DNA from: Gentiana macrophylla
Taxonomy: Eukaryota; Streptophyta; Magnoliopsida; Gentianales; Gentianaceae
Direction: 5' to 3'
Assembly (NCBI GenBank): GCA_026214975.1
Contig: JAOBSW010001236.1
Span: 248,001-312,000 of the forward strand
Length of the DNA stretch: 64,000 nucleotides
Below the pieces are notes generated by a model. The model was not told the DNA's origin and ran no database searches. It was given only the letters and a program-made list of their open reading frames with translations. Position 1 is the stretch's first letter; every line of letters starts with the position of its first letter. Of this stretch, positions 5,917 to 64,000 are shown in pieces. A program made the position numbers and the translations under genes.

Positions 5917-7150
5917 TGATGTCCAAAATAGTAACGTCTAACTTTGATCGGCAGTGTACCGAGTTGGATGCACTATAGTAGCGAGCAATGTCGTATCCCA
6001 CGAGGAATTTATCGAATACCAAAGTCGCCTCTTGATTTAGTTTAGGCAACCAAATTGTTTCAACTTCAATTACACTAAAACGTAATGTAAACTAAAGATA
6101 CTAAGGGAAGAGAGACATAGTCAAACCATGATTCAATTGATTACTTTCGCCCCTCTAATCGATTAACTTTGGAATAGGATTAACCAACCTACCAACCTAT
6201 AATTATATCGACTCATTCATGGGTGCAAACTCCTAAACTAGTGTAAGATGCCATGCAACTATCAAACACCCTTTGCTCGGTTCAACAATCCACTTTAAGG
6301 ATTTAATCGACCGAAACAAGATTAACGGGCTGAGTTGCTCGATTTCACAACCGATTAAGCCTCACTCCTAATCAATCTAAACGACTTAGTTGATTATAAG
6401 AAATGATCTTAAAACCCCTTTTCCCACATGCCTTCGCAACATACATTTATAAACTTGGTGTGTGTTCATTAACTAGGTATACGCCTAATTCAAGCATTAA
6501 GAACAACTTGTAAGACTCAAACAACATCAATTAAGCACTACCCATTCCCAATTTCATCAATTAGTGGGTGATTTCTTCAACTTTCACATGATTTGACTAT
6601 GAGATATTTAGCTACTCATAATAGAACTAAAAACAACAATCAAAGGCAAAATTAAAGCCATAAGAAAGAGGAAACTTAAATTGATTACCAAATTCATAGA
6701 GAAATGAATTAAATCAAGCTTTATCACACCTAATGTCAATTGATGATGAAGAAGACCCAAAATAACCAAAATCCAAAAGTAGAAAAGAAAATTGAGCTAG
6801 ATTATGCTAGTTCTATGTAATAACTAACGTAGAAGTGAATCTAAGAGTGAAAGGAGAAACTTTGATAAAGGGGTGAAAAGGGTATGAGGAAGAGAATTCT
6901 AGGTAAAGTGTATTATCCAAAGTATCTCCAACTCAGTGCAAAGAACTCTATTTATATATGCCTCAAAATTGCTCTTTAAACAAAGTTTAATACGTACACA
7001 TCCTGTCTCGAATGCGCACGCATTGCTCTTTGGTCGTCTGGGAAAACTTTATCCTGGCTGATATGGATGCGCACAAGATTGCCTCGCATGCATACGCATT
7101 GAATGTTTTGCCCTTAAATCCTTGACTTGCCGCCGCTTCGGAATGCGTCA
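5917..7150 (-). repeat. 3' LTR of element 1, truncated
   Basis: It matches 15350-16595 closely along its length, then diverges at about 7143-7150 inside a palindrome site (GAATGCGTC followed by unrelated bases). The remaining U3 and the PPT are absent. TATATAAATAG (minus strand) is at 6949-6959. Palindrome sites lie upstream at 6990, 7012, 7067 and 7088, pairs spaced 22 and 21 bp, plus the truncated one at 7143. Confidence 0.8.
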
Positions 7151-7854
7151 CGGTTAAGGAGAGTTTGACTCGATTTTTGCTAGGATGCAAACGGTTAAAA
7201 AGGAATTTGAGGAGGAATTTCGTTGCATCGGATATGGGACTTATCAAGAGACCTGGGGATTTACTAGATTGAGAGGAAAAGGGACATCGGGACACAACAC
7301 TAGCCTACCCTCATCATGGTAATTTGGCTTATCCTTCTTGAGATTTTTAAGAGTCGCGATATAGTCCTTGTCCAAAGGTACCGTGGGTATGCTATAGTGT
7401 GTGTTGATGACCTCCGTGAGATAGGAATGGTGACACCCCAGACTTTAACCGAAGTGCATGGCTGAGGTGAGGCGGACCAATTGGCGAAGAATTCACGAAC
7501 AATGGCGAGGTTTGGTGGTTTGGCGGGAGTGGTCAAAAGAGGTGTCCACTTACGGTTCTTAATGTTTTCATCGAAATGCATCCCAACACCTGCAGAATCG
7601 GAACACCGCTCAACAATGGGGTTCTTTTTTATTAAGAAGTTTTTGTAGTTTTCTTGAGCTAAAGGTGAAATAAAGTGCTGCTCAAACGGGATGGGACCGG
7701 TGGCACCTTAGGAGGGTTGGACCTAGGTTGACTAGGCGGTTCCCGGATGGTTAGGGCTACCCCTCCTCTAGTCTTTGGCCTCTTTGAGGGTTTCTCGGCG
7801 GTAGCCTGCCAAGGAGGACGAGTCGGGATTCGATTTAGACCTGGGAGGAGCCAT
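7151..7854 (-). pseudogene. Element 1 accessory ORF (env position), broken
   Basis: It starts at ATG 7854 (MAPPRSKSNPDSS), has an early stop, then resumes in another frame with the family core: KNRKWTPLLTTP, IVREFFANW, VWGVTIPIS (about 7300-7560). This matches the core of the accessory ORFs at 36907-37758 and 57956-59431. I recall the family as the 'putative plant transposon protein' domain; its function is unknown. The 3' end is lost at the LTR junction. A palindrome array with TATA box lies upstream at 8503-8757, and an apparent 5'-UTR intron ends four bases before the ATG. Confidence 0.65.
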
Positions 7855-7858
7855 TAAC

Positions 7859-8189
7859 CTAGGGTTTGGATACACTAGAAACGACACCACCGGAACAACA
7901 CCACAACAACCAACAAAAACAGAACCCGATTATCGTCCAACCGGGATTTCCCAAACACACCCACAACACCAAAACCAACAGAACAACACAATCACCCAAA
8001 GCACCACACCCAAACACCATCAAAATGAACACAAAAGAACACCACCACAACAACGGAGAAACAAAACATCAAGAAAAATTAAGGCAAACGGATCAAATAT
8101 GATCTAAGGGGTACAAGGGTAAAATTGCAAGCAAAAATAATTTGAACCCTAAGAACCGAATTTGAACAAGAGAGGATCATGATGCTTAC
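7859..8189 (-). other. Probable 5'-UTR intron of the element 1 accessory transcript
   Basis: On the minus strand a donor reads ATA|GTAAGC at 8190/8189. An acceptor reads CCCTAG|GTTAATGG at 7859, just before the ATG. Introns in the same place are readable in element 3 (59441-59716) and element 2b (about 45610-45751), which supports the call. Splicing itself is inferred. Confidence 0.45.
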
Positions 8190-8502: not shown

Positions 8503-8757
8503 TTTAAATAGGGGTGAGGAATGCATACGATTCGTGACAATGCGTACGCATTGGCCGGAGCAAGGAAAATAAGGAACAAACTCTCTTGAAGGGATGCGTA
8601 CGCATTCTCAACAATGCATACGCATCGAACTTACTTGAATTCTCTAAATGAAGGATGTGTACGCATCCAAAACAATGCATACGCATTAAGCATACTGAAC
8701 TCTCTGCTGACTCTCTGGTTGTGGAATGCGTGCGCATTGAAAAGAATGTGTACGCAT
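8503..8757 (-). promoter_or_regulatory. Element 1 internal promoter: palindrome array plus TATA
   Basis: The minus-strand TATA-like TATTTAAA is at 8503-8510. Eight sites related to ATGCGTACGCAT lie upstream, starting at 8521, 8540, 8594, 8614, 8655, 8675, 8726 and 8746. They form four pairs spaced 19, 20, 20 and 20 bp. Most departures from consensus are CG to CA or TG. The same motif and pairing precede the LTR TATA of this family. Its position suggests a dedicated promoter for the accessory ORF, with sites for a dimeric DNA-binding protein. Confidence 0.6.
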
Positions 8758-8857
8758 TGGACGGGGCTTCATCAAAACTTTACTTTTTCAGCCTAGATTC
8801 CCACTCCAACACTCGAGATCACTTGTAACACCTAAAAACTACTCAAAAAACAGAGAA

Positions 8858-15349: not shown

Positions 15350-17092
15350 TGGTGGCCAAAATAGCAACGTCCAACTTTGATCGGCAAAGTGTACCGAGTC
15401 GGATGCACTATAAGTAGCGAGCAATGTCGTATCCCATGAGGAATTTATCGAATACCAAAATCATCTTCAGATTTAGTTTAGGTCAACCAAAATGTTTCAA
15501 CTTCAATTACACTAAAACGTAATGTAAACTAAAGATACTAAGGGAAGAGAGACATAGTCAAACCATGGTTCAATTGATTACTTTCACCCCTCTAATCGAT
15601 TAACTCGGGAATGGGATTAACCAACCTACCAACCTATAATTATTTCGACTCATTCATGGGTGCAAACTCCTAAACTAGTGTAAGACGCCAAGCAACAATC
15701 AAACACCCTTTGCTCGGTTCAACAGTCCACCTTTAAGGATTTAACTGACCGAAACATGATTAACGCGCTAGAGTTGCTCGATTTCACAACCGATTAAGCC
15801 TCACTCCTTAATCAATCTAAACGACTCTGTTGATTATAAGAAATGATCTTAAAACACCTTTTCCCACACCCCTTCGCAACATATATTTATAAAAGTGGTG
15901 TGTGTTCATGAACTGGGTGTACAGTCTCATTCAAGCATTTAGAACAAGTTTTAAGACTCAATACAACATCAATTAAGCACTACCCATTCCCAATTTCATC
16001 AATTAGAGGGTGATTTCTTCAAATTTCACATGATTTGACTATGAGATATTTAGCTACTCATAATAGAACTAAAAACAACAATCTAAGGTAAAATTAAAGC
16101 CATAAGAAAGAGGAAACTGAAATTGATTACCAAATTCGTAGAGAAATCTGAATTACATCAAGCTTCATCACACCCATTGTCAATTGATGATGATGAAGAC
16201 CAAAAATAACCAAAATCCAATAGTAGAAAAGAAAATTGAGCTAGATTATGCTAATTCTATGTAATAACTAATGTAGAAGTGAATCTAAGAGTGCAAGGAG
16301 AAACTTCGATCTAAAGGGGTGAAAAGGGTATGAGGAAGAGAATTCTAGGTAAAGTGTATTATCCAAAGTATCTGCAACTCTGTGCAAAGAACTCTATTTA
16401 TATGTGCCTCAAAATTGCTCTTTAAAATGTCCAATGCGCGCACACATCCTCGCCTCGAATGCGCACACATTGCTCTTTGGCTGTCTGGGAAACTTTATCC
16501 TGCTGATATGGATGCGTACGCATTGCCCTGCATGCATACGCATTGAATGTTTTGCCCCTAAATCCTTGACTTGCTGCTGCTTCTGGAATGCGTACGCATT
16601 ATACGCAATGCGTACGCATTGTTCCCAATTCCCCATGCTTGAGCATCCTATATCAAGGATGCGTACGCATTAGCTGCATTTCTCCAAACCTTTGCATCCT
16701 GTACCAAGGATGCGTACGCATAGCTTAGAATGAGTACACATTGACTGCATTCCTTCAGCTTCTGCGGTTTCCTTCAGTTTTTCCCATCCCCCGAACCTTG
16801 GTCTTGCCTTTATGAGCTTAGTACCTTATCTTCCAGGATCACTAGCACCTATATCCCGCGTCATGATATCTAAACAGATACCGAGCATAATCTCGCAAGA
16901 TAAATGGGACTCAAAAGGACTAAAAACATCATCGAATAGCAAGGTTTGCCATCTATATGATGGTTTACCTCAAAGTGAATGCATTGTGTGTTTTCTCCCT
17001 TAACATGGCCTATAATTGCCCGGAATGAGCCAAAAATGCCATAAACGGGGGTTGAAATATGCACCAAAGCAAAGTAAAGTTGACTCTCATCA
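15350..17092 (-). repeat. 5' LTR of element 1 (1743 bp)
   Basis: TG at 15350 and CA at 17092, with the ATAAT duplication just outside. It is repeated as the truncated LTR at 5917-7150 and as a solo LTR at 24140-25849. The minus-strand TATA ATATAAATAG is at about 16394-16404. Confidence 0.85.
16391..16741 (-). promoter_or_regulatory. Element 1 LTR promoter: palindrome array plus TATA
   Basis: Upstream (rightward) of the TATA lie about nine sites related to ATGCGTACGCAT. Starts are about 16434, 16459, 16512, 16532, 16588, 16608, 16659, 16710 and 16730. Pairs 16512/16532, 16588/16608 and 16710/16730 are each exactly 20 bp apart. Five copies are perfect 12-mers. The same motif array precedes the internal TATA at 8503, so one binding factor could act at both promoters. 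Confidence 0.65.
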
Positions 17093-24139: not shown

Positions 24140-25849
24140 AATGGCCAAAATAGTGACAGTCCAACTTTAACCGGCAGAGTACCGAGTCGGATGCACTATA
24201 GTAGCGAGCAGGGTCGTATCCCACGAGGAATTTATCAGATACCAAAGTCGTCTTCGGATTCAGTTTAGACCAAGATGTTTCAAGTATTCAATTATGCTAG
24301 AACGATATGTAGGTTAAAGATAATAAGAGATATAGAAAGAGACATAGCCAAACCACGATCCAATTGAATACTTTCACCCCTCCAATCGACTCGTTGGGAA
24401 CGAGCTTAACCAACCAACCAACCTACTGATCATATCGACTCGTTCATGGGTGCAAACTCCTAAGCTAGTGTAAGACGCCATGCAACAATCAAACACCCTT
24501 GCCTGGTTCAACAGTCCGCCTTTAAGGATATAACTAACCGAAACAAGATTAACGCACTAGAGTTGTTCGATCTCACAACCGAATGAACCTCACTCCCTAA
24601 TCAATCTAAACAACTCAGTTGATTATAAGGAATGATCCTAAAACCTCTTTTCCCACACCCTTCGCAACATACATTTATAAAAGTGGTGTGTGTTAATGAT
24701 CTAGGTGTGCAGTGTAATTCAAGTTTTAAGACATGAATTTGTCGATACAACAGCAATTAAACACTACCCTTTTCCCAATTTCATCAATTAGAGGTTAATT
24801 CTTCAATCTTCACATGATTTGACTATGATATACTTAGCTACTCATATTAAAACTAAAAACAACAATCATGAGATAGAATTAAAGCCATAAGGAAAATGAA
24901 ATCGAAATTGATTACCAAAATCGTAGCAAAACTGGATTACCTCAAGCTCCAACACCACCCAATGTCAATTGATGATGAGGAAGACCCAAAATGATAAAAT
25001 CCAAGAGTAGAGACGAAACTTGAGCTAGATTAAGCTAATTCTATGTAATATCTAGTGTGAAGTAAATCTAAGAGTGAAAAGAAGGAATTTTGACCTAAGG
25101 GAAGTAAAAAGGGTATGAGGAAGAAGCTTCAGGTAAAGTGTAGTGTGAGATGTGTCTCAAATATCTCATGCAAAACATTCATTTATATGTGCCCAAAATT
25201 GTACTTGAAAAATCGTGCAATGCGTACACATCCTTTTGTAATGAGCACGCATTTCCTGTAGCTCTCGAAGACTTGATTCTGCCGAGGTGAATGCGCACGC
25301 ATTGAACGTGCTCCTCCAATCCGAATGTTGTTGCCGCTTTGTGATGCGTATTACATTGCCTCGTATTTTTCCGCATCGAGCATCTCGTTTCCATCGATGC
25401 GTCGCATTACACATAATACGACGCATTGATCGCACCTCACCAAATCTATACATCTCAGATCATGGATGCGCGCACGCATTGCCTCAAATGTGTACACATT
25501 GCTTGCTGCACCTTCCAATCTTCACTCTTTCTACAACTTTTCCATCCCCGAACCTCAGTTTTGCCTTCATAAGCTCAATGCCTTACCTTCCGGGCTTACA
25601 AACTCCTATATCCTGCGTCATAACATCTAAACACATACCGAGCATAACTTCGCAAGATAAATAGGACTCGAAAGGAATAAAAACACCGTAAAATGACAAG
25701 GTTTACCATCTATATGATGGTTTACCTCAAAGTGAACGTGCTATGTGTTTTTTTCCTTTAAAAAGGTCTAAAATTACCCGGAATTTAGCCAAAAGTGCCG
25801 TAAATGAGAGTTAAAACACGCACCGGAGCGTAGTAAGGTTGACTCTCAT
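24140..25849 (-). mobile_element. Solo LTR of the element 1 family
   Basis: It aligns with 15350-17090 throughout. The left end is mutated (TAATGGCC for TGGTGGCC), and the right end stops at GACTCTCAT where a LINE tail begins. No internal domain follows on either side, so it is a solo LTR. TATAAATG (minus) is at 25179-25188. It is the most decayed LTR of this family in the window. Confidence 0.7.
25179..25499 (-). promoter_or_regulatory. Palindrome array of the solo LTR, decayed
   Basis: Sites related to ATGCGTACGCAT start at 25220, 25241, 25291, 25344, 25397, about 25415, 25465 and 25488. Pairs are still spaced about 18-23 bp. Several carry CG to CA/TG changes or small indels, so the array has decayed along with the LTR. 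Confidence 0.5.
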
Positions 25850-27445: not shown

Positions 27446-27446
27446 G

Positions 27447-37834: not shown

Positions 37835-38009
37835 CCTTTTATAGAAATGTACCTATCATGCAAAAGTAGAAAAGATCTCTTTTTTGGCGTTTTTGTACTT
37901 CCCGGATCGATCCTGGAAAGGGCCGGATCGATCCGGCCTATAGCTGGAAATCTTGTCAGGTCGGTACACTCACGCCGGATTGATCCGGGATTAAGTCGGA
38001 TCGATCCGG
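37835..38009 (-). promoter_or_regulatory. Element 2a internal promoter: palindrome array plus TATA
   Basis: The minus-strand CTATAAAAGG is at 37835-37844, 77 bp before the ORF-B start codon. Four CCGGATCGATCCGG-type sites start at 37902, 37923, 37975 and 37996: two pairs of 21-bp spacing, 73 bp apart. The nearly identical array in 2b (43731-43835) shows the arrangement is maintained. Confidence 0.7.
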
Positions 38010-38281: not shown

Positions 38282-38626
38282 TCACTCCTCATCATCACTC
38301 ATCTCGACAAAGCTTGAACTCGGCATGGCTTGAGAATTAGCTGGATCATAAGTCGATTCATGAAATGGTTCTTGAAAATGTGTTGACATTCTAACCGAGC
38401 CATCGAATCCCATCGAGCTCATCCCTGTCGTGACATCAGTATAAGTGCTTTCCCATCCCGTCGTGGTATGGCTAAATGCTCCTAATCCTCCCCAACCAGA
38501 TGTAGCTGCTGTCGTAGTACCTGTCGAAAAATCCCCTATACCACTAGTTTGATTTCCAAAAGAATGCGGCATTTGTTGGAAGTTTGATCGAGGTGGCATC
38601 GGTGGAATAAAGTTGGGCATGGTATA
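38282..38626 (-). pseudogene. Element 2a accessory ORF-A, C-terminal part
   Basis: The frame ends with a stop at 38282 and reads FIPPMPPRSNFQQMPHSFGN, a G/T/S-rich stretch, and the acidic tail VEMSDDEE. It matches the C-terminus of ORF-A in element 2b (44112-44450). The upstream part is missing because the LTR of element 2b begins at 38627. Confidence 0.65.
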
Positions 38627-40554
38627 TGACGTGGCCTTTTCTAGTGCTAATACCAGTCCTTAACCGACAGTGTATCGGGTCAAACTGTAGTGCTAGTATG
38701 GTGAGTCAGAGTATCGTATCCTCAGGGAACTTTGTAATTCTTCTAAGTGTGGTTAAACACCAAAGAGCTTTTATTAACTCGATCTAAACCGCAATTTTAT
38801 AACACGGATCACTACTATTCTAGTCAACATAAAATAAATACGTAAATTAAAATTTTATTCTAATATAATATATATAGATACATAAATATATATAGATGTG
38901 CATAAGTTGCAAAGTATATATATAGATATAAATATATAGATGCCAAATATATTATTAGAGAACTAGCCAAAGTTTATATAATTGATTTATACGATCTTTT
39001 CAATTGAATGGAATGTGCTCGATCTTTAGGTTCAATTGAGTAAATGAAACGGTGTACTCTTAGGTTAACAATTCGCCCTCACATTAGCGCATTTAAATTG
39101 TCATATGTCCATTGTCATCACCCAAATCCACAATCATTACGGTTTTTCGAATGTGTCCCGAAAGTACGATTCTACCTTTGAATAAAAGGAGTCATTCCGT
39201 TCGTCAAACGGTCAATTTTATTTAAAGGCTCCGGTTGTCAAGGCGGGCGATTCAACTTTCCGGTTTAAGTTTCAATTAATCGATGATTTTAACATTATTA
39301 CGATCTTGAGTACAAATTTTAATAAGATTTATCTTTTAGGACAAATCGCTTCGAATAGGAAATTGATTCCGTTGTCACGTTTTCACTCGGCCAATTTTTA
39401 CCCTCCGGTTTTTCTATTAACGAGTTCATAACTTAATTATTGAGGCGCCAATTCATAATTAGATTATGAATTCTTTCAAGTCAAACTTTATCAATAGAAA
39501 AAGATTCAATTAGCTCAATTTTATTCAATTTTACTTAGACAACATTCCTTTACCGAAAAGATCGAAATAAAACGATTACATAACTTTGGCTAGTTATTAG
39601 ATTTAGCCTACTAACATTATACGAAAAAATAAAAAACAAACATAATAAACATAAATACTTTAGAAATTTTACCCGATTACAACGATTGGATCGGAAGATG
39701 TATTCGCCGGATGCTGCTACAACAACTTCAACAACATTGATCTTCCGATAATTTCTCGAGCATTATGACGATACTACTTTATTTATGGCATAAGGCCTAT
39801 ATATATACATACTACTACTACTAGAAAGAGGTAAAAGAAATATATTTGGTACCCTTTTTGTGCCTGCAATGCTGCCCTTTTTATAGGCAATTTTTCCCTT
39901 GCCGGATCGATCCGAGAAAGGGCCGGATCGATCCGGGAATAAAAAATATTATCCCAGGATATTCTCTGCAGGGCCACATGCTGGATAATCATTATGCCTC
40001 CTCGGATCGATCCGGATAGATTTTTTCCAATCTTAATCCGAAACTTGATAAAATCATAACTTGAGCTCTGGATCTCCAAATGACATAATTCAAGATGCGT
40101 TGGAAAGCTCTTGAGGAGATCTATAACTTCCATGAAGACTTCTTTTTCAGAAAATGCCTTTTTGCTGGGCCATTTGTTCGTTGAAAATATAACTTGATAC
40201 GGCGTCACGAACCACTGATCCACTTGAACTTTAAATCTCGTGGCACTTCCTTTATTCCTTCAAAAGATATGATTTTACTCCACAAAATGTCGTCACTCGG
40301 GGTCTTGGTTTACCTAAGGTCTGTAAAATACCAAAAATACCCACGTGAATCTGATACGACACTCCGGTTATTAACCCGGTACAAAATTTATAACTTTTTA
40401 TCATTTTTTTACTAGATTTTTATAGTATTTAGATTTATTCATAGCTATTAATATTTTATAAGATTATCTGTTATAATTACTTATATTTTATATAAAAAGA
40501 GTCGATAACGTATATAAAACATCGTAATTTTTATCATATAAATGTTACACATCA
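38627..40554 (-). repeat. 3' LTR of element 2b (1928 bp)
   Basis: TGACGTGG...ACATCA, nearly identical over its length to 52960-54901. The PPT AAGTGGGAGTAGT (complement of 40555-40567) adjoins it. Confidence 0.9.
39876..40015 (-). promoter_or_regulatory. Element 2b 3' LTR promoter array
   Basis: CCTATAAAAAGG (minus) is at 39876-39887. Sites start at 39902 and 39923 (21-bp pair) and at 40002. The partner of the last site, present as a pair in the 5' LTR (54335/54355), has been lost by a roughly 20-bp deletion. Confidence 0.7.
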
Positions 40555-41350: not shown

Positions 41351-41389
<39 letters not shown>

Positions 41390-42972: not shown

Positions 42973-43009
<37 letters not shown>

Positions 43010-43600
43010 CGTGTCGGCGGCGTGTCGTTCCCTCAAATTCTGAAAGTAACCGTGTCGCCGTGTCCGTGTCGTGTCGTGCGCCGTTCCCGTGTCCGTGTCC
43101 GTGCTTCATAGGTTATGATCAAACAACGGAAATACGAACTGAAAGGCTTCTGCAGTACGGTTTACAACATTATACGCATCCCCAAGTTCCCAAAGAAACT
43201 CGAAGTGTGGGTTTCGATCAAAAGTACATGGTGGAATTTGATAGATTTGATTTATGATGACTGGTGAAAATGAAATAACGATTCCCCTAACTGTAATAAG
43301 TTGAGATGAGGCTACTGTCGTTATCTCAGTGAGAGACGCAAAGAAATCTCTAACTATCGAAATGTTTACTCGACCTCTGGGAGTCCTTATCAACTTTTTC
43401 CACCCGCAACCTCGGATTAGATTACGTCCCCACTGATCAATTTTTTCAGTGTTTAAGCCTTTCTCCATCAGAATAGGAGAACGGACGAAATTTAGATGTC
43501 TCGGGACGCCATTATGAAAACAAGAGGCATGCGCCTTCGGGACCACACCATCAGCGATGTGGTTCATAACTATTAACGAAGGAGAGGAGCGGTTAGACAT
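42167..43600 (-). pseudogene. Element 2b accessory ORF-B, broken by a MITE
   Basis: It starts at ATG 43600 (MSNRSSPS) and matches the intact 36907-37758: WGRNLIRGCGWKKLIRTP, SIVRDFFASL, VRGIVISFSPVIINQIYQIP. After FPLFDHN the frame is cut by a 545-bp MITE (42568-43112). It resumes on the far side as TVGAYIDWGVLIFKTAINF and then frameshifts. Its own TATA and palindrome array lie upstream at 43664-43835. Confidence 0.75.
42568..43112. mobile_element. hAT-like MITE with GGGACACG minisatellite (545 bp)
   Basis: Terminal inverted repeats TATGAAGCAC(C/G)GACAC are flanked by a perfect 8-bp duplication TTATGATC (42560-42567 and 43113-43120). Inside, 42714-42905 is an irregular array of GGGACACGTTG/GGGACACGGCG units, and 42949-42993 is TA-rich. 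It interrupts accessory ORF-B, whose reading continues on both sides. Confidence 0.8.
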
Positions 43601-43663
43601 TTTCAAATAGAGATTAAAATAGAAGAAAGGAAAGAATGAGCAAAAGGTTGGCTGTTGCTCTTT

Positions 43664-43835
43664 CCTTTTATAGAATACATCCATCAAGCAAAAGTAGAAA
43701 AGATCTACTTTCTGCGCGTTTTTGTACTTTCCGGATCGATCCGAGAAAGGGCCGGATCGATCCGGCCTCGAATCGATAATGTTGTCGTCGGTATACTCAC
43801 GCCGGATCGATCCGTGAAAAGCCGGATCGATCCGG
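43664..43835 (-). promoter_or_regulatory. Element 2b internal promoter: palindrome array plus TATA
   Basis: CTATAAAAGG (minus) is at 43664-43673. Sites start at 43731, 43752, 43802 and 43822, pairs of 21 and 20 bp spacing, 71 bp apart. All four keep the GGATCGATCC core. Confidence 0.7.
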
Positions 43836-44111: not shown

Positions 44112-45608
44112 TCACTCCTCTTCATCACTCATTTCGACGTGGCTTGAACTTGGCATAGCTTGAGAACGGGTCGATTCTTGGGATGGATCTTGAAAATAAG
44201 TTGACATCCGCATCGAGCTATCTAGTCCCATCGAACTCATTTCTCTCGTGATATCGAAAAAGTGCTTCCCCATCTCGTCGTGGTATGGCCAAATGATCCA
44301 GATCCAGTCCATTTCGATGTCGCGAATTTGCCATAGTACTGCCGAAAAATCTCCTACACCACTAGTTTGAAATCCAAAAGAATGTGGCATTTGTTGGAAA
44401 TCCGAGTGAGGTGGCATCGGTGGAATGAAATCGGGCAAGGTATAAGGTGGGTTTGGCATTGCGGAATATCCATCTCGGCATAGGTAGGGTTCTGCAAAGA
44501 TATTCATTTGATATAAACCTCGTATGCCTTGACGTAAATCTTCGCACCATAATTTATTCCTTTCATAAAAACACCATATTGGCATTAGCACGATGAACAT
44601 CATAGGCCATGGATTGAAACATATCGTAAGTGATGGTATTGGGAAGATGAGTTTGAGATTATTTGGATGAAGGAGAGGACAAAGAGTAGATGGAGTAGGC
44701 CGAGGTCGTTGACGGTTAGGGTCCAAAAGTTTATTCTTCCCGCCGCCTAAGTGGTAAACTAGGACCGATAAGTGTGTCATCTACCATCATCAAATTATCA
44801 TTTGGGAGCTCGGGGACTCCTATCCGACGACACAAGGAAGAAATAAAACACGGAAAAGGCATGTGGATCGCCGTCTCAGCGATCAGGTAAAATCTTTGGC
44901 CCTTCTATACATCACTCGCCTATATCCACAGTACATCATTAACTATAGCCCAAGCAATACACAAATCCTCTTTACCAAAAGATGTAAAATGCCGAGTCGG
45001 GTAAAAAGTGTGGATCGATAAAACGTTTAATGGCTTTCATATCCCGGATACATTTCCCATAGGAAAACTGTTTTCATGCCAGGCAATGGATGGGATCTAA
45101 CTCATTCAGGCTACCGCAACAATATGATCAAAGTCTCATGGCTCATCCAAATTCCAAATCGTATAATAATCCTCATTCTCGGTATATCAGAATACCATAA
45201 ATAGCATTAATAATGTGAGGAGTAAACGGCATCGCCCTAGTTCTCAAAGTTGACAGAGGTTAACTCACCTTCATCCGTAGCATTGTGAGTTGTTGCTACC
45301 AGAGAATAAAATTCGCTACTAAGGTGGTGTTAATTTCTCCCGACCTTAAACTGGCTAATTCCATCCAATGCCTCCCTTCAAAAATTTCCTTCACCTCCCT
45401 TCCCAAATTTTTAAAGTCTAAGCCCCTCTCTATTGCAACTAAACATTGTCCAAATTTATTTTTCAATGCTTTCTTAGCTGCAGCAGACGCGGTTCTTTCA
45501 AAACTAACTGCCAATTCTTCTTCTGTTAAAGGCCTAGTTTCTATAACTGGAATTTGGGTAGGGATATGCGGTTTGCGTTTTTTTACTAGCTTTGGATGAT
45601 TCGGCCAT
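44112..45608 (-). pseudogene. Element 2b accessory ORF-A, frameshifted
   Basis: ATG at 45608 follows an acceptor-like CGTAG|AATGG; a frameshift near 45575 leads into KKRKPHIPTQIP with a KKRK basic patch. The next block is PLTEEELAVSFERTASAAAK with FEGRHWMELASL and INTTLVANFIL, the counterpart of the family core (W..L, LVREFYAN). The middle (45290-44780) is decayed. The C-terminus, PPMPPHSDFQQMPHSFGF and the acidic VEMSDEEE, is readable. It stands between integrase and ORF-B, so this family carries two diverged accessory ORFs in tandem. Confidence 0.65.
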
Positions 45609-45989
45609 TCTACGATAATGACACAATAACAAAACAACAAAAAAAAAAAAAACAACACAAAACAACAAGTACAAATGTGAGTGACAAAACAAGTTGAAAA
45701 ATAAAAATTGCATAAAAACGAAATTAAGAAAATAAGTGACTACAATGTTACCTTACAAAGCTTAAAGAGGTTGAAATTTGGCGGAAAAGATGGAAAGTCG
45801 CCGGAATGAAAGTTGAAGCTTTCCTTGAAAATTACTTCAATGTTAATGCAAATTTGAAGAGAGGAGTGGAAAATGAGAAAAGTTTAAGAAGTGGTGTAGT
45901 TTAATGGTGATAGTGTGTGATGATTTGAAGGAAAAATTCGAATTGGGGAAGAAGGGAGGGGCGGCTGTTTTTAGAAAAAGAAGAAGAAG

Positions 45990-46080
45990 AAGAAAGAGGT
46001 CCCCGTCCCTTTTTAGGTTTTTTCAGTTCCGGATCGATCCGGGACCAAATTTTTTTTTTTTTTTTTTTTTTTTATTTTTT
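45990..46080 (-). promoter_or_regulatory. Single palindrome site upstream of ORF-A
   Basis: One perfect CCGGATCGATCCGG is at 46029-46042. A minus-strand CCTAAAAAGGGACGG near 46004-46018 resembles a mutated form of the LTR box CCTATAAAAAGG. A long T run (about 46050-46072) lies beside it. It could be the remnant of an array like that before ORF-B. Confidence 0.4.
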
Positions 46081-52959: not shown

Positions 52960-54901
52960 TGACGTGGCCTTTTCTAGTGCTAATACCAGTCCTTAACCGA
53001 CAGTGTATCGGGTCAAACTGTAGTGCTAGTATGGTGAGTCAGAGTATCGTATCCTCAGGGAACTTTGTAATTCTTCTAAGTGTGGTTAAACACCAAAGAG
53101 CTTTTATTAACTCGATCTAAACCACAATTTTATAACACAGATCACTACTATTCTAGTCAACATAAAATAAATACGTAAATTAAAATTTTATTCTAATATA
53201 ATATATATAGATATATAAATATATATAGATGTGCATAAGTTGCAAAGTATATATATATAGATATAAATATATAGATGCCAAATATATTATTAGAGAACTA
53301 GCCAAAGTTTATATAATTGATTTATACGATCTTTTCAGTGAATGGAATGTGCTCGATCTTTAGGTTCAATTGAGTAAATGAAACGGTGTACTCTAAGGTT
53401 AACAATTCGTCCTCACATTAGCGTATGAAATTGTCATATGTCCATTGTCATCAGCCCAAATCCACAACTGTTACGGTTTTTCTGAACAGGTCCCGAGTAC
53501 GATTCTACCTTTGAATAAAAAGGAGTCATTCCGTTCGTCAAACGGTCAATTTTATTTAAAGGTTCCGGTTGTCAAGGCCGGGCGATTCAACTTTCGGTTT
53601 AAGTTTCAATTAATCGATGATTTTAACATTATTACGATCTTGAGTACAAATTTTAATAAGATTTATCTTTTAGGACAAATCGCCCCGAATAGGAAATTGA
53701 TTCCGTTGTCACGCTTTCACTCGGCCAATTTTACCCTCCGGTTTTTCTATTAACGAGTTCATAACTTAATTACGAGGCGTCAATTCATAATTAGATTATG
53801 AATTCTTTCAAGTCAAACTTTATCAATAGAAAAAGATTCAATTAACTCAATTTTATTCAATTTTACTTAGACAACATTCCTTTACCGAAAAGATCGAAAT
53901 AAAACGATTACATAACTTTGGCTAGTTATTAGATTTAGCCTACTAACATTATACTAAAAGATAAAAACAAACATAATAAACATAAATACTTTAGAAATTT
54001 TACCCGATTACAACGATTGGATCGGAAGATGTATTCGATGCGGATGCTACAACAACTTCAACAACATTGATCTTCTGATAATTTCTCGAGCATTATGACG
54101 ATACTACTTTATTTATGGCATAAGGCCTATATATATACATACTACTACTACTAGAAAGAGGTAAAAGAAATATATTTGGTACCCCTCATGTGCCTCGCAA
54201 TGTGCCGCTACTTTTATAGGCAATTTTTCCCTTGCCGGATCGATCCGAGAAAGGGCGGATCGATCCGGGAATAAAAATATTATCCCAGGATATTCTCTGC
54301 GCAGGCCACATCTTTGGATAATCATTATGCCTCCTCGGATCGATCCGAGGTAAATCGGATCGATCCGGATAGATTTTTTCCAATCTTAATCCGAAACTTG
54401 ATAAAATCATAACTTGAGCTCTGGATCTCCAAATGACATAATTCAATATGCGTTGGAAAGCTCTTGAGGAGATCTATAACTTCCATGAAGACTTCTTTTT
54501 CAGAAAATGCCTTTTGCTGGGCCATTTGTTCGTTGAAAATATAACTTGATATGGCGTCACGAATCATTGGTCCACTTGAACTTTAAATCTCGTGGCACTT
54601 CCTTTATTCCTTCAAAAGATATGATTTTACTCCACAAAATGTCGTCACTCTGGGTCTTGGTTTACCTAAGGTGCGTAAAATACCAAAAATACCCACGTGA
54701 ATCGACACGACACTCCGGTTATTAACCGGTACAAAATTTATAACTTTTTATCATTTTTTACTAGATTTTTATGGTATTTAGATTTATTCATAGCTATTAA
54801 TATTTTATAAGATTATCGTTATATTTTATTATATTTTATATAAAAGAGTCGATAACGTATATAAAACATCGTAATTTTTATCATATAAATGTTACACATC
54901 A
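52960..54901 (-). repeat. 5' LTR of element 2b (1942 bp)
   Basis: TGACGTGG...ACATCA next to the PBS, nearly identical to the 3' LTR at 38627. It ends 3 bp before the LTR of element 3. Confidence 0.9.
54207..54368 (-). promoter_or_regulatory. Element 2b 5' LTR promoter: palindrome array plus TATA
   Basis: CCTATAAAAG (minus) is at about 54211-54220. Sites start at 54235, 54255, 54335 and 54355: two pairs, 20-bp spacing each, 100 bp apart. All four contain CGGATCGATCCG. Confidence 0.7.
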
Positions 54902-54904: not shown

Positions 54905-56452
54905 TGTGTCACGGATTTTATTAACAAAGCAAACAAGTAATAAAATTTATAAATCCGGTTTTTCCTCAAGTATAAGGATCGTTGTATAGAGGTTGATACC
55001 GGGTCGATCTTACGGGGAACTGGCGATTGTTAACCCTAGTGTTTGTCTAATTAAATTATGTCACGAAAAACTAATCTAAACAGCGGATAAAACTAAACGA
55101 AACTGATAACAAACTTAACTAAAACGTAAAACTGGACAGAAGATATGATCTAAAGCCAGGAAAGATACGGGTTGCGAACTATTAAACTAAAACTAATATG
55201 AAATAAAAGTAACTAATCTAGACAATTCAAGTTTCACAGGATTAAATTCAAGTTTTAATGAACAAACGAGCGATTGATCCACCTATCCTAACAAGTATCA
55301 ATTCCTATCTCGATTAAAGTGCGTTTTCTAACCAAGTTGTGATTTCACATTGTCTAAAACATGAACCCTAATTTCTTAGGTAATTCACCTATTAATCTAT
55401 ATCTTTCGATCTAAGATTAGCGATTTTACGAAGCAAAGGTGTAAACTTTAACCTAGAAATCTAACCTATTAACTCTCGTTATGATAGATTAAACAAGTAT
55501 TCCTTATCATGGTGATCTAAGGCTTATAGAGACTTTCATCGACATAAGACAATCATAACATGCAAATCTTTCGATACAATTGCAATTAAACAATATAAAC
55601 ATGCAATAAGGAAACAACTTTAGGTAAAACTCACAATATAATCGCAGAAACGGAATCAAAACGTGTAGGATGGCTTCACAATGCTCGTTTGATGAAGCTT
55701 AGCCTCTCAACATCCTCTGGAAACTCAAAATTGCAGGAAAAACTAACATAAAACTGCCTACTTTTAATCTAGAATTTGGAGCATAAAAACTGGAATAAAA
55801 GAAGTAAAAATGCAGCCTAAAGCCGCCCCTAGGTTTAGGGTTTCGAATAATGAGTATATCGTATCCTTAAGGTAGAGAAAACGCGTTGTATATATAGAAA
55901 ACAAAGGCGGCGCTGCTAAGTCGGCCGAAGGACGCCCGTCCATACTTGTGAACGCCCGTCCAGATGGATTTGGACTTGCTTCAGACGCCCGTCCACTCAA
56001 CGTCCATACTCTCTGTATCAAATTTCTCAACTGGACGCTCGTTTGGAGATGGTGGACGCTCGTCCAGTCTGGACGCTGATTCAATCTTCTGGACGCCAGT
56101 CCAGAATCAACTTCATCTTGATTTTTTTCATACTTATCCCTTCTTCTTCAATGTAAATCATCATTATCTCCTCCTCTTTAATTAAATCCGACTTGATCAT
56201 CTTTGAATCACCTCTTGAGCTCGAATTTGTGAATCTATAACACATTAAAACATCGCAAAATGTAGTAATGTCCAAATAATCATAAAATAACAATTAAAAC
56301 ACCAAAATCAACCAATTTTGCTCTTAACTCGTTAAAAACCCCATTTACTCAATACTTCCGTTAAACACTCGTTTCTTATGCAATTTTATACGAATATGAG
56401 GGAAAATATCATAGAATATAGCGTTATAAATCGTATAAATTCACCCTTAACA
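54905..56452 (-). repeat. 3' LTR of element 3 (about 1548 bp)
   Basis: It starts TGTGTCACGG at 54905 and ends CCCTTAACA at 56452, followed directly by the PPT. No second copy is in the window, so the left end rests on the TG and its position beside the 2b LTR. Confidence 0.7.
55887..56102 (-). promoter_or_regulatory. Element 3 LTR promoter: palindrome array plus TATA
   Basis: CTATATATACA (minus) is at 55887-55897. Sites of GGACGSSCGTCC type start at 55930 and 55950 (20 bp), 55983 (half partner after it), 56033 and 56054 (21 bp), and 56071 and 56091 (20 bp). Both arms, GGAC and GTCC, are kept in 55930, 56054 and 56091. Confidence 0.65.
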
Positions 56453-57955: not shown

Positions 57956-59431
57956 TCATGACTGCCCCGGAGCCGCAGAATCATCAGCCAGAGGTACATC
58001 ACCCGCCGGGGTATCAGGCTGCTCCTCATCCGAAGAAGACTCAGATTCCTCCAAAACATCCGCAATGGCCTGCTCAATCGCATCAGAATAGCTATAATCC
58101 ATGGTGCTCGGAGCGAAGATTCTGTCATCCTCGCCGCCGCCCTCACTGATACACTGCAGAATCGTCAAAATGTTGTTTTGTGTAGTCCGAATATCCTCCA
58201 ACCAGTTCCGAACACTGTTGCCCATACTCAACCTCATCCGGACTGAGGGAGATATAGGAGGAAGTGAGGATGCTCGAGGCGGTGCTGATGACGAACCAGG
58301 CTCCTGTGGTGCCCCCGACTCAGAATGTCCCGAAGACTTACCCTTCTCCCTCTGTATAGGCCTCGGGTTCTTCGGTCTATGATCCGCTCCATACTCAGGC
58401 ACACCGGCATCAAGACACAAACTGTGAATCAAGTGAGGGATAATCAAGCTACGTGTATAAATCTTCTGATTGATAGCCACCTCATCGTATAATGCTTGTC
58501 CCACGTTCATATTTAGGCCAAAAGTCAACGCATAAAGCATGCCTAGGTCACCAATATGAAAATGCGTCAAGTTGTTCTTCGGTAACAACCGACTCTGAAT
58601 AAACCTACACTGGACTTTCCAATCCTCCGTCCAGGTAGTGGTGACTAACTCTTTCCGGTCTCCACCCGGCCTCAATGTCCAAGCCACCTCCGGGCAAACT
58701 CTCAACCGTAACTCCTCCAAAGGATCTCGCCCCGTACTCTATCTATGAACAATTTCTTCCTTGTAGTCCCGTCCCTCAAAAGCCGCCAAGTTATACTTCT
58801 GATTAATCACTTCCGGCGTAAACGGAACTTCTACCCCTCGAACCACAACTACCCCCATCCCCAAGTCGGTCTCCGAGCAATTAGCGTAAAATTCCCGAAC
58901 TAGGGAACCATTGACCGGAGTAGTCGGGATCGTCATCAAGGCATCCCATTTCCGGTCTTTTAGCAACTTAACGAAACCCGGATCCACCTTCGCCTCCAAC
59001 GTAGCCCTCTCAATCAACATGGTCCTCGAGAAATAGTGTTTAGTATAAGCGTTGTGGGCTCTAGGGTTCACGAATCTACGAGGCATCGGCGTGGGGGCTA
59101 TGGTTTTCGCTTTTTTCCTAGGTTGTGCAGCCCTAGTCTCCACCGGTTCCTCTTCCCGAGGAGCATCCATAGCCTCCTCAACCCTAGACGATGCTCCACC
59201 TCTCTGAGCTCTAGGCATCCTTACCAAGGGAATATCATCATCCGTCTCAGATTCCGAGGTTGGCTCATCCCTCAAAGTAGCCCTAGTTTGGGTGGCTCTA
59301 TGGGGTTGCTCACGAATACTAACACCTCGGTTTGGATCAACTAAGGTGGGATCAAACTCTTTCCGCTTCTTCCCGGCCTCCCTGGCCACATCCTTACCAT
59401 GCCGTTTGACTACCGCCTTCTTATGCACCAT
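57956..59431 (-). CDS. Element 3 accessory ORF, 492 codons with one in-frame TAG
   Basis: ATG 59431 (MVHKKAVVKRHGKDVAR) to a stop at 57956 is one frame broken only by TAG at 58739-58741. The N-terminus has basic patches KKRK and RKKAK, like nuclear localisation signals. The family core follows at residues 155-225: LKDRKWDALMTIP, SLVREFYANC, VVVRGVEVPFTPEVINQKY. After the TAG come VAWTLRPGGDRKELV, a helical LPKNNLTHFHIGDLGMLYAL and the tail LEESESSSDEEQPD, strongly acidic. No transmembrane segment is visible. The intact frame after the stop suggests a recent mutation or readthrough. A 5'-UTR intron and a palindrome/TATA promoter lie upstream. Confidence 0.7.
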
Positions 59432-60012: not shown

Positions 60013-60234
60013 GTATATATAGACAGATGTGGGACACTCGTCCAACTCAGCGGACGGACGTCCAGCTAGAAATTATATGAACTGGACGGGCGTCATGATT
60101 TTCAGACGCTCGTCCAAACATTTGAAAACTGAACAGGATTGGAGGGAAATAATCGGACGGGCGTCCAAAATGTTGGACGGGCGTCCAATTGATACATTGA
60201 GGCGACGGACGCCCAGTCCTTCAGACGGGCGCCC
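60013..60234 (-). promoter_or_regulatory. Element 3 internal promoter: palindrome array plus TATA
   Basis: CTATATATAC (minus) is at 60013-60022. Eight GGACGGGCGTCC-type sites start at 60032, 60052, 60084, 60104, 60155, 60175, 60203 and 60223: four pairs, every one exactly 20 bp. The pair 60155/60175 is perfect. This is the best preserved array in the window. Confidence 0.75.
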
Positions 60235-61010: not shown

Positions 61011-61013
61011 CGT

Positions 61014-62430
61014 TTAAAGTTCAACCTGGATCAAGGCCATTCGACTTTCTCGCCAAACCACTACCTCGTCTAGACTTTGATCAGTAGTTTGGCTGCAGAA
61101 ACAGCACTTAACACATGGGGTGAAATCTTTGATAGCTTTCCAAACACGTTTGAATTTCCCCATGGTTGACTTCTTCATCTTCTGAGTCTTCTGATGACGT
61201 TTCAACTGACGCTCCCTCTTATACTCTTCCATATCCCAACTACCTGCTAGAACTTCTTCAGATCGACCACTACCGTCATCCTCTGAAAACAGGTCGGGTG
61301 AAAACTCGTCAAATTCTTCGACTTTTGTAGCACCACACCCGAGGATATCGAGGAAACGAACAATCAAAGGCTTTTCCTTAGGTTCACCAATGTAGTGCTT
61401 ACACCTTTGACCATTCACTCGAAACGGTTGGTCACCATAACCTCGTAGTTCTAAGACACCTTCAGGAATAATTTGGAGAATCTCAAAGGGACCGGACCAT
61501 CGTGTCCTCAGCTTACCAGGGAACATATGTATCCTGGAATTGTATAATAAAACTTGTTCCCCAACATGGAATTCTCTTTTCTTAATTTTGGCGTCATGGA
61601 GGAGTTTCATCTTATCTTTGCTAATCCTGGCGCTTTCATAGGCTCGAGTCGACCGCCCAACTCATACAAGCTCACTGCGCATCGGTGCTTACCACAAGAT
61701 TGGGAATCAAAGTTCGTAAACTTTGTAGCCCAATAAGCTCTATGCTCTAACTCATTGGCGCAGATGACATGGCTTACCATTTGATATGGAGATGTACCCA
61801 TAGGAGTCTTATAGGCGGTCCTGTATGCCCATAGTACATCATCCAACTTCAAACTCCGCTTTTCTATGATGTTGGACCGCTTTTTCCAGGATTTTCTTAA
61901 TACTTTGGTTGTTGCTTTCAACCTGACCACTAGTCATCGGATGATATGGTGTGCCAGTCTTATGATGAACACCATACTTTTCAAGAACTTTCTCTAGGGG
62001 TCGATTGCAGAAATGCGTCCCTTCATCACTGATCAAGGCACGTGGACATCCAAACCTCACGAAGATGTTTTTCTTTAGAAATTTCATGACCGTCTTATGA
62101 TCATTGTGAGGAGTGGCTTGAGCCTCCACCCATTTCGACACGTAATCTATGCAGACTAAGATGTATTTGTTACCACAAGATGATGAGAATGGTCCCATAA
62201 AATCGATACCCCATACATCAAAGACTTCGCATTCTAGGATGGGTTTCAAAGGCATGTCAAAACGCCTTGTCAGAGTACCGGTTCTCTGGCATCTATCACA
62301 AGCTTTACAGAAAGCTTCGGTGTCCTTAAAGATCATGGGCCAATAGAAACCGGATTGGAAAATCTTAGCAACGGTTTTCCAAGGACCAAAGTGACCTCCA
62401 AAGTGGGTCCACTCGTGGGCCTTCGCTCAA
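61014..62430 (-). pseudogene. Element 3 integrase, nearly intact
   Basis: Core with all three catalytic residues: VWGIDFMGPF (D), ALISDEGTHFCNRPL (D), MTSGQVESNNQSIK (E). CKACDRCQRTG upstream is the second half of the HHCC finger. The C-terminal domain VGEQVLLYNSRIHMFPGKLR and RWSGPFEILQIIPEGV (61550-61430) is followed by a K/Q-rich tail. One frameshift near 61850 and one near 61610 divide it into three frames (62336-61839, 61930-61607, 61610-61014). Confidence 0.8.
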
Positions 62431-63977
62431 TAATATCGCTTGCGCCAGATTTGGAACACATCTTCTAAGCAAACCATCTTTGCAGATCTTAAGCAGAGAT
62501 AAGGTTCATCCCAAACGAAGATTTCAAATCGAGAAGAACTTTTCTTCTCCTGATAGGACAATTCTGGATCGAGATATCGGGCATGAAGGTAATTTACAAT
62601 GGAAGAATACCAAGGAACATCAGGAGGACAACCGTCGATAAGCATAATGTTCTCTAGAGGAAAGTAAAGATCTATATCGTCTGGATCATCCTTTTCCTCA
62701 CTTAGCATTCTCGAAACGTGATCAGCCACTACGTTTTCACTACCCCTTTTGTGTTTAATTTGAATGTCAAACTCTTGTAGGGTCAATATCCAACGCAGTA
62801 GGCGCGGTTTAGCCTCCTTCTTAGTCATCAGATACCGCAAAGCAGCGTGGTCAGTCCACACAATCACTTGAGCTCCTAACAAGTAACTCCGAAACTTGTC
62901 CATAGCAAAGACTACGCCAATAATTCTTTTCGAAGAGTAGTATAGTTAACTTGAGAAGGATTCAATGTGTGACTGGCGTAATAGATTGGCTGGAATTTCC
63001 CTTTGATTTTTTGTCCTAAAACAGCACCAACTGCATAGTTTGATGCGTCACACATAAGCTCAAAAGGTAGGTTCCAGTCAGGCGATATAAGAATTGGAGC
63101 AGAGATTAAACGGTCCTTAAGCTCCTCAAACGCTTGCTTGCAGCTCTCATCAAAATTGAACTCAACGTCTTCCTTTAGTAAAGTAGACAGGGGATTGGCT
63201 ATCTTGGAGAAGTCTTGAATGAATCTTCTGTAGAAACCGACATGTCCAAGAAAGCCTCTTACTTCACGCACATTCTTGGGATAACTCAACTTCTCGATAG
63301 CTTCTACTTTTGCCCTGTCAACTTCTATACCCTTGGCGGAGATCTTGTGGCCAAGAACTATTCCCTCATCAACCATGAAATGGCATTTTTCCCAATTGAG
63401 CACTAAGTTCTTTTCCACGCATCTGGATAACACTTGATCAAGATTGTCAAGACAATCATCAAAAGACTGACCAAAGACTGAAAAATCGTCCATAAAGATT
63501 TCCATACACTTTTCTACTAGCCCGTCAAAGATAGCATAGATACATACATCTTTGAAATGTAGCTGGGGCATTGCAGAGACCAAATGGCATTCTCCTGTAG
63601 GCGAATGTACCATAAGGGCAAGTGAAAGTGGTCTTTTCTTGGTCAGCTGGATCAATGGGTATTTGAAAGTATCCTGAATATCCATCCAGGAAGCAGCAGA
63701 ATGCGTGCCCCGCCAGACGTTCAAGCATCTGGTCAATGAATGGAAGGGGAAAGTGATCTTTCATGGTTACCTCATTGAGCTTTCGATAATCGATGCAGAC
63801 TCTGTAACCAGTGACAAGTCTCAATGCAATTTCCTCTCCCTTCTCATTCTTCTCAATCGCAATTCCACCTTTCTTGGGAACTACCTGAGTCGGGGAGACC
63901 CATTCACTATCAGCGATGGCATAAATGATTCCCATGTCCAGAAGTTTGATAATTTCTTTCTTAACCACCTCTTGCAT
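62427..63977 (-). pseudogene. Element 3 reverse transcriptase and RNase H
   Basis: RT: SEWVSPTQVVPKKGG, CIDYRKLNEVTMKDHFPLPF, CCFLDGYSGYFQIPID, MPFGLCNAPATFQRCM, catalytic MDDFSVFG, then [20 protein letters not shown]. RNase [44 protein letters not shown] and NVVADHVSRM, all catalytic acids present. Only two single-base shifts (near 63600 and 62908) break the frame. The RT N-terminus begins close to the window edge. Confidence 0.85.
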
Positions 63978-64000
63978 ATGAGGGTTGAGCCTCCTCTGGG

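Follow-up and report, generated by a model that had tools for sequence, protein, structure and literature searches.

The 64,000-nucleotide stretch of Gentiana macrophylla DNA that we analyzed (hereafter the window) holds three Athila-type families, each with its own palindrome in front of its promoters, raising the question of what reads these sites. The original prediction was that each family encodes a regulator matched to its own palindrome. The lineage name Athila is a provisional one taken from that prediction; the integrases of the window elements are 27–71% identical (most matches 40–65%) to integrases adjoining PF03078 ATHILA matches.

The three palindromes are unrelated: ATGCGTACGCAT in family 1, CGGATCGATCCG in family 2, and GGACGNNCGTCC in family 3. 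With up to two mismatches, motifs 1 and 2 have 23 and 21 sites in the window, against shuffle means of 1.2 and 0.7 (maximum 4 for each); motif 3, with up to one mismatch, has 13, against a mean of 0.4 and a maximum of 2 (30 shuffles per motif). Read by eye, clusters of palindromes precede TATA-like boxes in LTRs and accessory ORFs, and a motif-agnostic scan of positions 5918–64000 found 15 pairs of like palindromes at a spacing of 19–22, versus 0.2 in shuffles. The claim that all three families have their own palindromes before TATA in LTRs and before accessory genes was confirmed. The predicted pairing is also real in all three, but the motif of family 3 is a gapped palindrome. Family 2 carries a pair of accessory genes, A and B. 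The sites are distributed as follows.

6990..7100, minus strand: other LTR of family 1, decayed motif sites, then TATATAAATA near 6950
8538..8760, minus strand: family 1 array before the accessory-gene region, ATGCGTACGCAT-type pairs 8594/8614, 8655/8675, and 8726/8746, spacing 20; after it, TATTTAAA at about 8501–8510, by eye
16459..16742, minus strand: family 1 LTR array, pairs 16512/16532, 16588/16608, and 16710/16730; then TATAAATA at about 16395–16402
25220..25500, plus strand: decayed sites of family 1 type, 25220/25241 (spacing 21), 25291, and 25488, close to a divergent copy of the LTR repeat of family 1
34744..34887, minus strand: another family 2 LTR, pairs 34744/34765 and 34855/34876; TATAAAT at about 34718–34724
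37903..38008, minus strand: family 2, before ORF B, two CGGATCGATCCG pairs, spacing 21 and 21; TATAAAA at about 37837–37843
39903..40014, minus strand: family 2 LTR, palindromes 39903/39924 and 40003; TATAAAA at about 39878–39884
43732..43835, minus strand: family 2, second copy, before ORF B, two palindrome pairs, spacing 21 and 20
46029..46042, minus strand: family 2, before ORF A, a single palindrome
54236..54367, minus strand: third family 2 LTR, two palindrome pairs, spacing 20; TATAAAA at about 54212–54218
55930..56102, minus strand: family 3 LTR sites, pair 55930/55950, then 55983, 56054, and 56091; TATATATA at about 55888–55897
60032..60186, minus strand: family 3 array before the accessory ORF, GGACGNNCGTCC-type pairs 60032/60052, 60084/60104, and 60155/60175, spacing 20; TATATATA at about 60014–60021

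The centre-to-centre spacing of the pairs is nearly fixed at 20–21 bp whatever the motif sequence, a feature that is new here. We searched the genome for exact pairs at any spacing from 12 to 42, using reversed patterns as controls. Motif 1 formed 269 pairs (spacing 19–21 in 47 of the 50 listed; the others 27, 40, and 41), motif 2 formed 6,545 (19–22 in all 50 listed), and motif 3 formed 6,295 over both strands (20–21 in 66 of the 100 listed, the others 18–42), with 0 pairs in each reversed control. For CGGTYTGCRCCG, the complete list has 30 of 32 pairs at 20–22 and the others at 39; its reversed control gave 0 forward and 1 reverse. Pairs of motif 3 are less strict in spacing than those of motifs 1 and 2, and the CTCGGTCGACCGAG clade has a 22-bp pair in six of nine loci, both of which count against the explanation favored below. 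Across 16 ORF B promoters, a spacing of 20–21 / 50–54 / 21 is kept, with a majority of 0.965 in palindrome columns versus 0.735 elsewhere, and the spacers between paired palindromes vary in sequence while their length stays. Strict helical phasing between pairs is hinted at but not consistently kept, and is not claimed: many distances lie near 71, 101, and 112, but 28, 48, 76, and 94 occur too.

What do the accessory genes encode? By the order read from sequence, the accessory ORF of the window elements sits between pol, in which an integrase domain was found, and the 3′ LTR. The following pieces were recognized.

7300..7707, minus strand: piece of the broken family 1 accessory ORF, similar to PF20167 (E 1.8e-7, under the curated cut-off)
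36907..37758, minus strand: family 2 accessory ORF B, intact, 283 aa, PF20167 E 1.5e-18
38282..38659, minus strand: family 2 ORF A, C-terminal piece, acidic tail SDDEE
43106..43612, minus strand: second family 2 copy of ORF B, N-terminal part, interrupted by a small insertion (about 42551–43115)
44112..44780, minus strand: family 2 ORF A, C-terminal piece, SDEEE tail
45296..45658, minus strand: family 2 ORF A, N-terminal frame piece, KKRK patch; the piece resembles locus L043 (a PF20167 match)
57956..58720, minus strand: family 3 accessory ORF, C-terminal piece, rest of PF20167 and acidic tail SESSSDEEQPD
58739..59431, minus strand: family 3 accessory ORF, N-terminal piece, KKRK, RKKAK, and first part of PF20167

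The element 3 ORF is split by an in-frame stop, and that of element 1 is broken. A Pfam scan of the accessory proteins found no DNA-binding domain, only PF20167 (Transposase_32), a family of unknown function. ORF B (67.8 bits) and the element 3 N-terminal piece (46.8) score above its curated cut-off of 45, and the element 3 C-terminal piece (43.8), the second ORF B copy (36.5), and the element 1 piece (31.6) score below; every one of the 15 sequences in alignment A4 matches the family at E ≤ 0.1. No relative emerged from a PDB profile search (best E 0.4 and 1.8) or from a scan of viral contigs, and an AlphaFold model of ORF B, built on a four-row alignment of window sequences, was unusable (pLDDT 38). 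Among 20 ORF B copies picked from rows free of internal stops, dN/dS had a median of 0.14 over the 136 pairs, out of 190, whose dS was finite, and synonymous divergence reached about 1.0–1.6 among the pairs listed.

The basic patches and acidic tails expected of nuclear regulators were found in part: the element 3 ORF has KKRK, RKKAK, and SESSSDEEQPD, and ORF A has KKRK with SDDEE or SDEEE, but ORF B has neither feature, so that NLS-like patches and acidic tails mark only some of the accessory ORFs. Hydropathy maxima in a 19-residue window were 1.52 for ORF B and 1.16 and 1.04 for the element 3 pieces, with no clear transmembrane segment in these by this simple measure. One degenerate C-terminal piece of ORF A reached 1.61, and the ORF A frame piece reached 2.35 at its very start, ahead of the likely start codon.

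If these proteins read the palindromes, motif and protein should change together, as the original prediction proposed, and clade-specific motifs across 40 loci bear this out. All 14 loci of the family 2 protein clade (65–95% identity) have at least two exact motif 2 sites, versus 0 of 26 others (Fisher 4e-11, ignoring relatedness among loci). Motif 3 occurs in three of four element-3-like loci and in 0 of the 36 others. A clade at 62–64% identity carries a shifted motif, CGGACCGRTCCG, with at least one exact site in 6/6 loci versus 0/34 others; it is found at spacing 21 in all six, occurs twice or more in exact form in two, and at one mismatch also matches all 14 motif 2 loci. The match between motif and clade stems partly from common descent. 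Divergent proteins sharing one motif, the pattern named beforehand as contrary to the proposal, are weakly seen: CACACC/GGTGTG half-sites are common to L010 and L023/L027, whose proteins are 52.6–55.9% identical over 136–173 aligned residues and whose half-site architecture differs. Two of the 12 protein clusters compared (L032 and L045) had no motif. Motifs of L029, L037, L040, and L043, read by eye from single loci and hence circular in the cluster comparison, were left out of the tests; for the L030 motif the check covered the whole genome.

In seven families, one motif recurs in the ORF promoter and an LTR or downstream promoter; the L010, L023/L027, and L073 stretches are taken for LTRs from their position, and the 62–64% clade is represented by one LTR. 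In six families compared at up to one mismatch, each motif was present in both its own ORF promoter and its own LTR and in no unrelated family; for family 5, the written pattern matched nothing even in its own segments, and its single palindromes were read by eye. The seventh family is L034/L073. The top four BLASTN matches per family between ORF-promoter and LTR segments consist mostly of palindromes, spacers, and a few flanking bases. Among LTRs of the 62–64% clade, one has the shifted motif and L069 has only diverged half-sites; the downstream stretches of L030 (L072) and L029 (L074) contained no matching array.

We also surveyed the top 20 of 63 ATHILA-ORF1 (PF03078) matches, reading eight loci by eye (L009, L010, L012, L015, L016, L018, L023, and L027) and the others by script. 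Arrays were called in four of the 20 (L009, L010, L023, and L027), with single palindromes instead of pairs in L023/L027. The motif-agnostic scan found 11 pairs at lag 19–22 in these 20 loci, versus 0.2 in shuffles, located in L010, L011, L012, L017, L018, L023, L024, and L026. In L018, a TCGAACATGTTCGA array follows the ORF at an uneven spacing of 16–23. CTCGGTCRACCGAG and CGGACCGATCCG are further candidates for paired palindromes.

These patterns make it reasonably probable that the elements encode a DNA-binding regulator that reads their own LTR and internal promoter, diverges with its site, and likely activates or de-silences. Between pol and the 3′ LTR, each such family would code for one protein, or two, built around a PF20167 core, and the protein would bind its own family's palindromes, one dimer per palindrome. 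The 20–21 bp between paired palindromes amounts to two helical turns, which would place two dimers next to each other on the same helix face. Since its sites precede both the TATA of the LTR and the promoter belonging to the accessory gene, transcription of the element's genome and production of the protein itself would both fall under the protein's control. We infer this binding, the dimer-of-dimers, the direction of the effect, and the feedback from the arrangement of sites and genes; the effect would most likely be activation or removal of silencing, as with foamy-virus Tas or VANC, giving the feed-forward loop originally proposed. As protein and site diverge together, families would be insulated from one another.

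The same anatomy, with sites close upstream of TATA (within about 20 bp in family 3), would also suit an element protein that acts as an autorepressor, closing the LTR and its own promoter once enough protein is present, for copy-number control or immunity. We think this unlikely, since Tas and VANC, the known systems of similar anatomy or logic, act by activation or de-repression; the acidic tails of ORF A and the element 3 protein, which we take to be more like activation tails, count weakly in the same direction. The palindromes could instead be read by host transcription factors, a different one recruited by each family for its LTR and its internal promoter. Palindromes are characteristic of dimeric factors. 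Sites for host factors may occur in plant LTRs (PMC12844716). However, a 20–21 bp geometry common to unrelated motifs makes assorted host factors hard to invoke, as different factors are unlikely to impose one pair spacing, and in the sampled loci the motif shifts where the clade of the element protein shifts, which is unexpected for a host factor. We therefore regard host factors as quite improbable readers.

Being inside the element, the palindromes are also present in its genomic RNA, where palindromes can form kissing loops, and might act in packaging, dimerisation, nuclear export, or integrase or Gag binding rather than in transcription. That role seems very unlikely, given that the sites precede TATA in distinct promoters of the same element and that the spacing, about two turns of B-DNA, keeps its length while its sequence varies. 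Least of all do we expect the arrays to be functionless remnants of local tandem duplication, even though TRF finds a 20-bp tandem unit at 16587–16629 and VANC sites, too, are described as having spread through tandem repeat formation (PMC5735166, in part). Palindromes are better kept than flanks and spacers between copies whose synonymous divergence is up to about 1.0–1.6, and one motif recurs in LTR and internal promoters that have little other DNA in common.

A self-encoded regulator of this kind would have precedents. Spumaviruses have an internal promoter and, between env and the 3′ LTR, the gene for Tas/Bel-1, which dimerises and binds both LTR and internal promoter in the account available (PMC4929722). 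The elements described here likewise have one motif in LTR and internal promoter and an accessory gene near the 3′ LTR, but differ in their palindrome pairs at 20–21 bp and in the several families with different motifs in one genome; their regulator is putative, and we claim no sequence relation. VANC proteins of the Arabidopsis VANDAL DNA transposons read family-specific clusters of short motifs in non-coding parts, with motif and protein diverging together (PMC5735166, in part). Our families resemble them in having family-specific clusters matched to protein clade, with putative binding. In contrast, the VANC21 motif YAGTATTAY has one orientation and is non-palindromic, VANDALs belong to another class, and demethylation was measured there.

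In sunflower, the 3′ additional ORF of Athila has the PF20167 domain found in our accessory ORFs, with a predicted NLS and nuclear localisation, and was grouped with env-like proteins; the sections of that source available to us report no cis sites or site-protein match (PMC11728184). The gene23 of Grande has its own promoter and a nuclear protein, and for it and Retand TRP28 DNA binding is considered possible and a regulatory role suspected (PMC7264820 and PMC11963269, in part). Both accessory ORFs lie between pol and the 3′ LTR as here, but antisense; Retand's belongs to another Pfam family, PF04195, and a palindrome code goes unreported for Grande and Retand in the available portions of these sources (PMC7264820, PMC11963269).

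The Athila-type accessory ORF has hitherto been called env-like, with its function unassigned. One sunflower Athila clade shows a drop in methylation in its LTRs, and the same 2026 paper, in the part available, does not settle whether Athila ORFs influence the epigenetic state of their own elements (PMC12844716). With motif and protein paired, this question can be put to a direct test using single proteins and short DNA probes. More tentatively, at somewhat short of even chances, PF20167, whose present label is putative plant transposon protein, may be a large family of transcription regulators that retrotransposons encode and whose palindrome code is switchable: the dimer-of-dimers geometry would be fixed and the half-site free to evolve, and the env-like genes of these elements would be regulators rather than envelopes. 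Several, perhaps many, private promoter-regulator pairs could then coexist in one plant genome, and in some elements two paralogues, ORF A, which has the NLS-like patch and acidic tail, and ORF B, which lacks them, would share one site, where they could oppose or complement each other. If true, these elements would provide a natural set of orthogonal binding pairs in which the specificity of a DNA-binding module changes while its geometry is kept.

The assembly containing the window spans 1.79 Gb, and on the minus strand of the window several gypsy-type LTR elements lie nested in one another. The original prediction that three Athila-type families, each with a different 12-mer, share one architecture held up: each motif precedes a TATA-like box in an LTR and also precedes the accessory-gene region of its own family.

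Palindromic motifs of the three families, with their sites in the window
Family 1 (motif 1): ATGCGTACGCAT; 23 sites, shuffle mean 1.2
Family 2 (motif 2): CGGATCGATCCG; 21 sites, shuffle mean 0.7
Family 3 (motif 3): GGACGNNCGTCC, a gapped palindrome; 13 sites, shuffle mean 0.4

An 18-bp perfect palindrome at window 20408-20425, TGGGGTCACGTGACCCCA, is not part of the arrays discussed here.

The palindromes had also been noted to come in pairs, and a motif-agnostic scan bore this out, with 15 pairs at a lag of 19-22 in the window versus 0.2 in shuffles. Beyond that observation, we found that the spacing within pairs is nearly constant, regardless of motif sequence. Applied to the upstream parts of 20 loci with PF20167 (Pfam Transposase_32, the domain hit by the accessory proteins) and to 20 ATHILA-ORF1 (PF03078) loci, the same scan returned 10 and 11 such pairs, respectively, versus 0.2 in shuffled sequence in each case. 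Two helical turns of DNA measure about 21 bp. Genome-wide, with centre spacings of 12-42 permitted, there were 269 pairs of motif 1, 6,545 of motif 2 and, with the first site set to GGACGCCCGTCC, 3,158 forward and 3,137 reverse pairs of motif 3 (the same pair possibly counted on both strands), with 0 in the control for each motif. Among the pairs listed for these motifs, a non-random set consisting of the earliest hits along the first chromosomes, spacing was 19-21 in 47 of 50 for motif 1 (the remainder 27, 40 and 41), 19-22 in all 50 for motif 2 (21 in 32 of these) and 20-21 in 66 of 100 for motif 3 (the remainder 18-42). A further motif spotted by eye in locus L030, CGGTYTGCRCCG, forms 32 pairs genome-wide (19 forward, 13 reverse; controls 0 and 1), and its complete list holds 30 at 20-22 and two at 39. 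Finally, a clade of nine loci with proteins like APPGRVNVNWVREFY carries the motif CTCGGTCGACCGAG, with a pair at 22 in six of the nine; by the scan, L033 has one at 41, L039 has one at 45 and L048 has none.

We compared motifs with protein clades across 40 loci, and the claim that motif and protein diverge together was supported, in that the motif follows the clade. For ORF B, one of the two family 2 accessory genes, 138 relatives 62-100% identical were listed, and 20 were fetched to cover this range. All 14 relatives at 65-95% identity have at least two exact copies of CGGATCGATCCG, and none of the 26 other loci has even one. The six at 62-64% instead have a CGGACCGRTCCG-like pair with a spacing of 21; an exact site of this type occurs at least once in all six, twice in two of them and in none of the 34 other loci, and at one mismatch the shifted pattern is indistinguishable from motif 2. 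Three stretches were retrieved as candidate LTRs of this clade: L070 has the shifted motif in pairs at 22 and 21, L069 has diverged half-sites 21 apart, and L071 turned out not to be an LTR. At least two motif 3 sites were present in three of four loci resembling element 3, the fourth being shortened by a contig end, and in none of the 36 others. The motif CTCGGTCRACCGAG (two sites, one mismatch) was found in 7/9 of its clade and 0/31 others, and in sequence downstream of one member there are pairs with spacings of 23 and 22, the former ahead of TATATAA. Among the 12 protein clusters compared, L032 and L045 lacked a motif, and the upstream region of L045 resembles unrelated DNA.

Common descent partly explains this clade matching. 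Across 14 fetched ORF B promoters and two from the window, 16 in all, the four sites are consistently spaced at 20-21, 50-54 and 21 bp, and the gap between the last site and the ATG ranges from 130 to 161. The mean majority fraction is 0.965 in palindrome columns, 0.821 in spacers, 0.811 between pairs and 0.735 across all non-palindrome columns. Synonymous divergence reaches about 1.0-1.6 in the more distant ORF B pairs among those printed, and conservation of the palindromes above other columns at such divergence argues for selection on the sites.

For six families, each family's motif was also scored, at up to one mismatch, in every family's ORF promoters and LTRs. Matches were confined to a motif's own family, apart from mutual matches between the two motifs of family-2 type, which are closely related. 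As written, the pattern for family 5 matched no family; by eye family 5 has single palindromes, GTCACACC-NNN-GGTGTGAC. When the ORF promoter of a family was compared with its LTR by BLASTN, the top four hits consisted mostly of palindromes, spacers and a few adjoining bases. Downstream of L030 and L029, the stretches retrieved as candidate LTRs showed no matching array. In the ATHILA-ORF1 group, where 8 of the 20 loci were read by eye, arrays were called in 4/20, and two of these four have single palindromes. The L010 protein is 52.6-55.9% identical over aligned parts to those of L023 and L027, which have single palindromes, and half-sites are common to all three, so that specificity may change slowly in this group. 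At L018 3980-4200, 3' of an ATHILA-type ORF and beside AT repeats, lies a TCGAACATGTTCGA palindrome array with uneven spacing of 16-23. Downstream of the ORF in L015 and L016, at about 6800-8150 in ORF-forward orientation, a tandemly repeated region holds 11 copies of AGTCGAAA and 9 of ATTTCGAC, with about 0.3 expected of each.

Five sequences match PF20167, two of them above the curated cut-off: the intact ORF B (36907-37758), a second ORF B copy, the two element 3 ORF pieces and a piece from element 1. Both family 2 accessory genes (window 36907-46042) lie under the same palindrome. The NLS-like patch and acidic tail ascribed to the accessory proteins are present in the element 3 protein and in ORF A, where the patch is KKRK, but ORF B has neither, so the combination is not general. 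Among 20 ORF B relatives, picked from rows without internal stops, median dN/dS was 0.14 (range 0.07-0.66) over 136 of 190 pairs, those whose dS was finite. The predicted structure of ORF B gave no usable fold (pLDDT 38), and no relative of the accessory protein was found in the PDB. For the N piece of element 3, all 150 scored relatives in the genome (of 11,816 candidates) are at least 88% identical, and family 3 looks like a recent expansion. A small insertion (42551-43115) in the second ORF B copy, read by eye, resembles a Mutator-type MITE: its ends are inverted (CTATGAAGCAC...GTGCTTCATAG), it contains GACACG-type tandem repeats, and a 9-bp duplication, GATCATAAC, flanks it.

In the searched literature on Athila or LTR palindromes and PF20167, mostly papers available without subscription, we found no report of such palindrome pairs. 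A sunflower Athila ORF combines PF20167 with a predicted NLS, according to the accessible text of PMC11728184. Athila clades differ in methylation, one showing a drop in LTRs, according to the accessible text of PMC12844716, which does not settle whether Athila ORFs influence methylation. In foamy viruses, Tas recognises two sites of transcription control, the LTR and an internal promoter that precedes the tas gene itself (PMC4929722, as far as accessible); its likeness to our elements is one of anatomical arrangement, and that of the VANC proteins of VANDAL transposons (PMC5735166, likewise in part) is one of logic, with no relatedness claimed for either.

The model we propose starts from the sites, their spacing and positions, their matching to clade and the low dN/dS, all of which are observed. 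From these we infer DNA binding, dimers, a direction of effect and feedback. The palindromes would be read by the PF20167 protein of their own family, putatively as one dimer per palindrome and two dimers side by side on a pair. Such a reader would be the simplest model for unrelated motifs that share one geometry, occupy both LTR and internal promoters and keep step with the protein clade.
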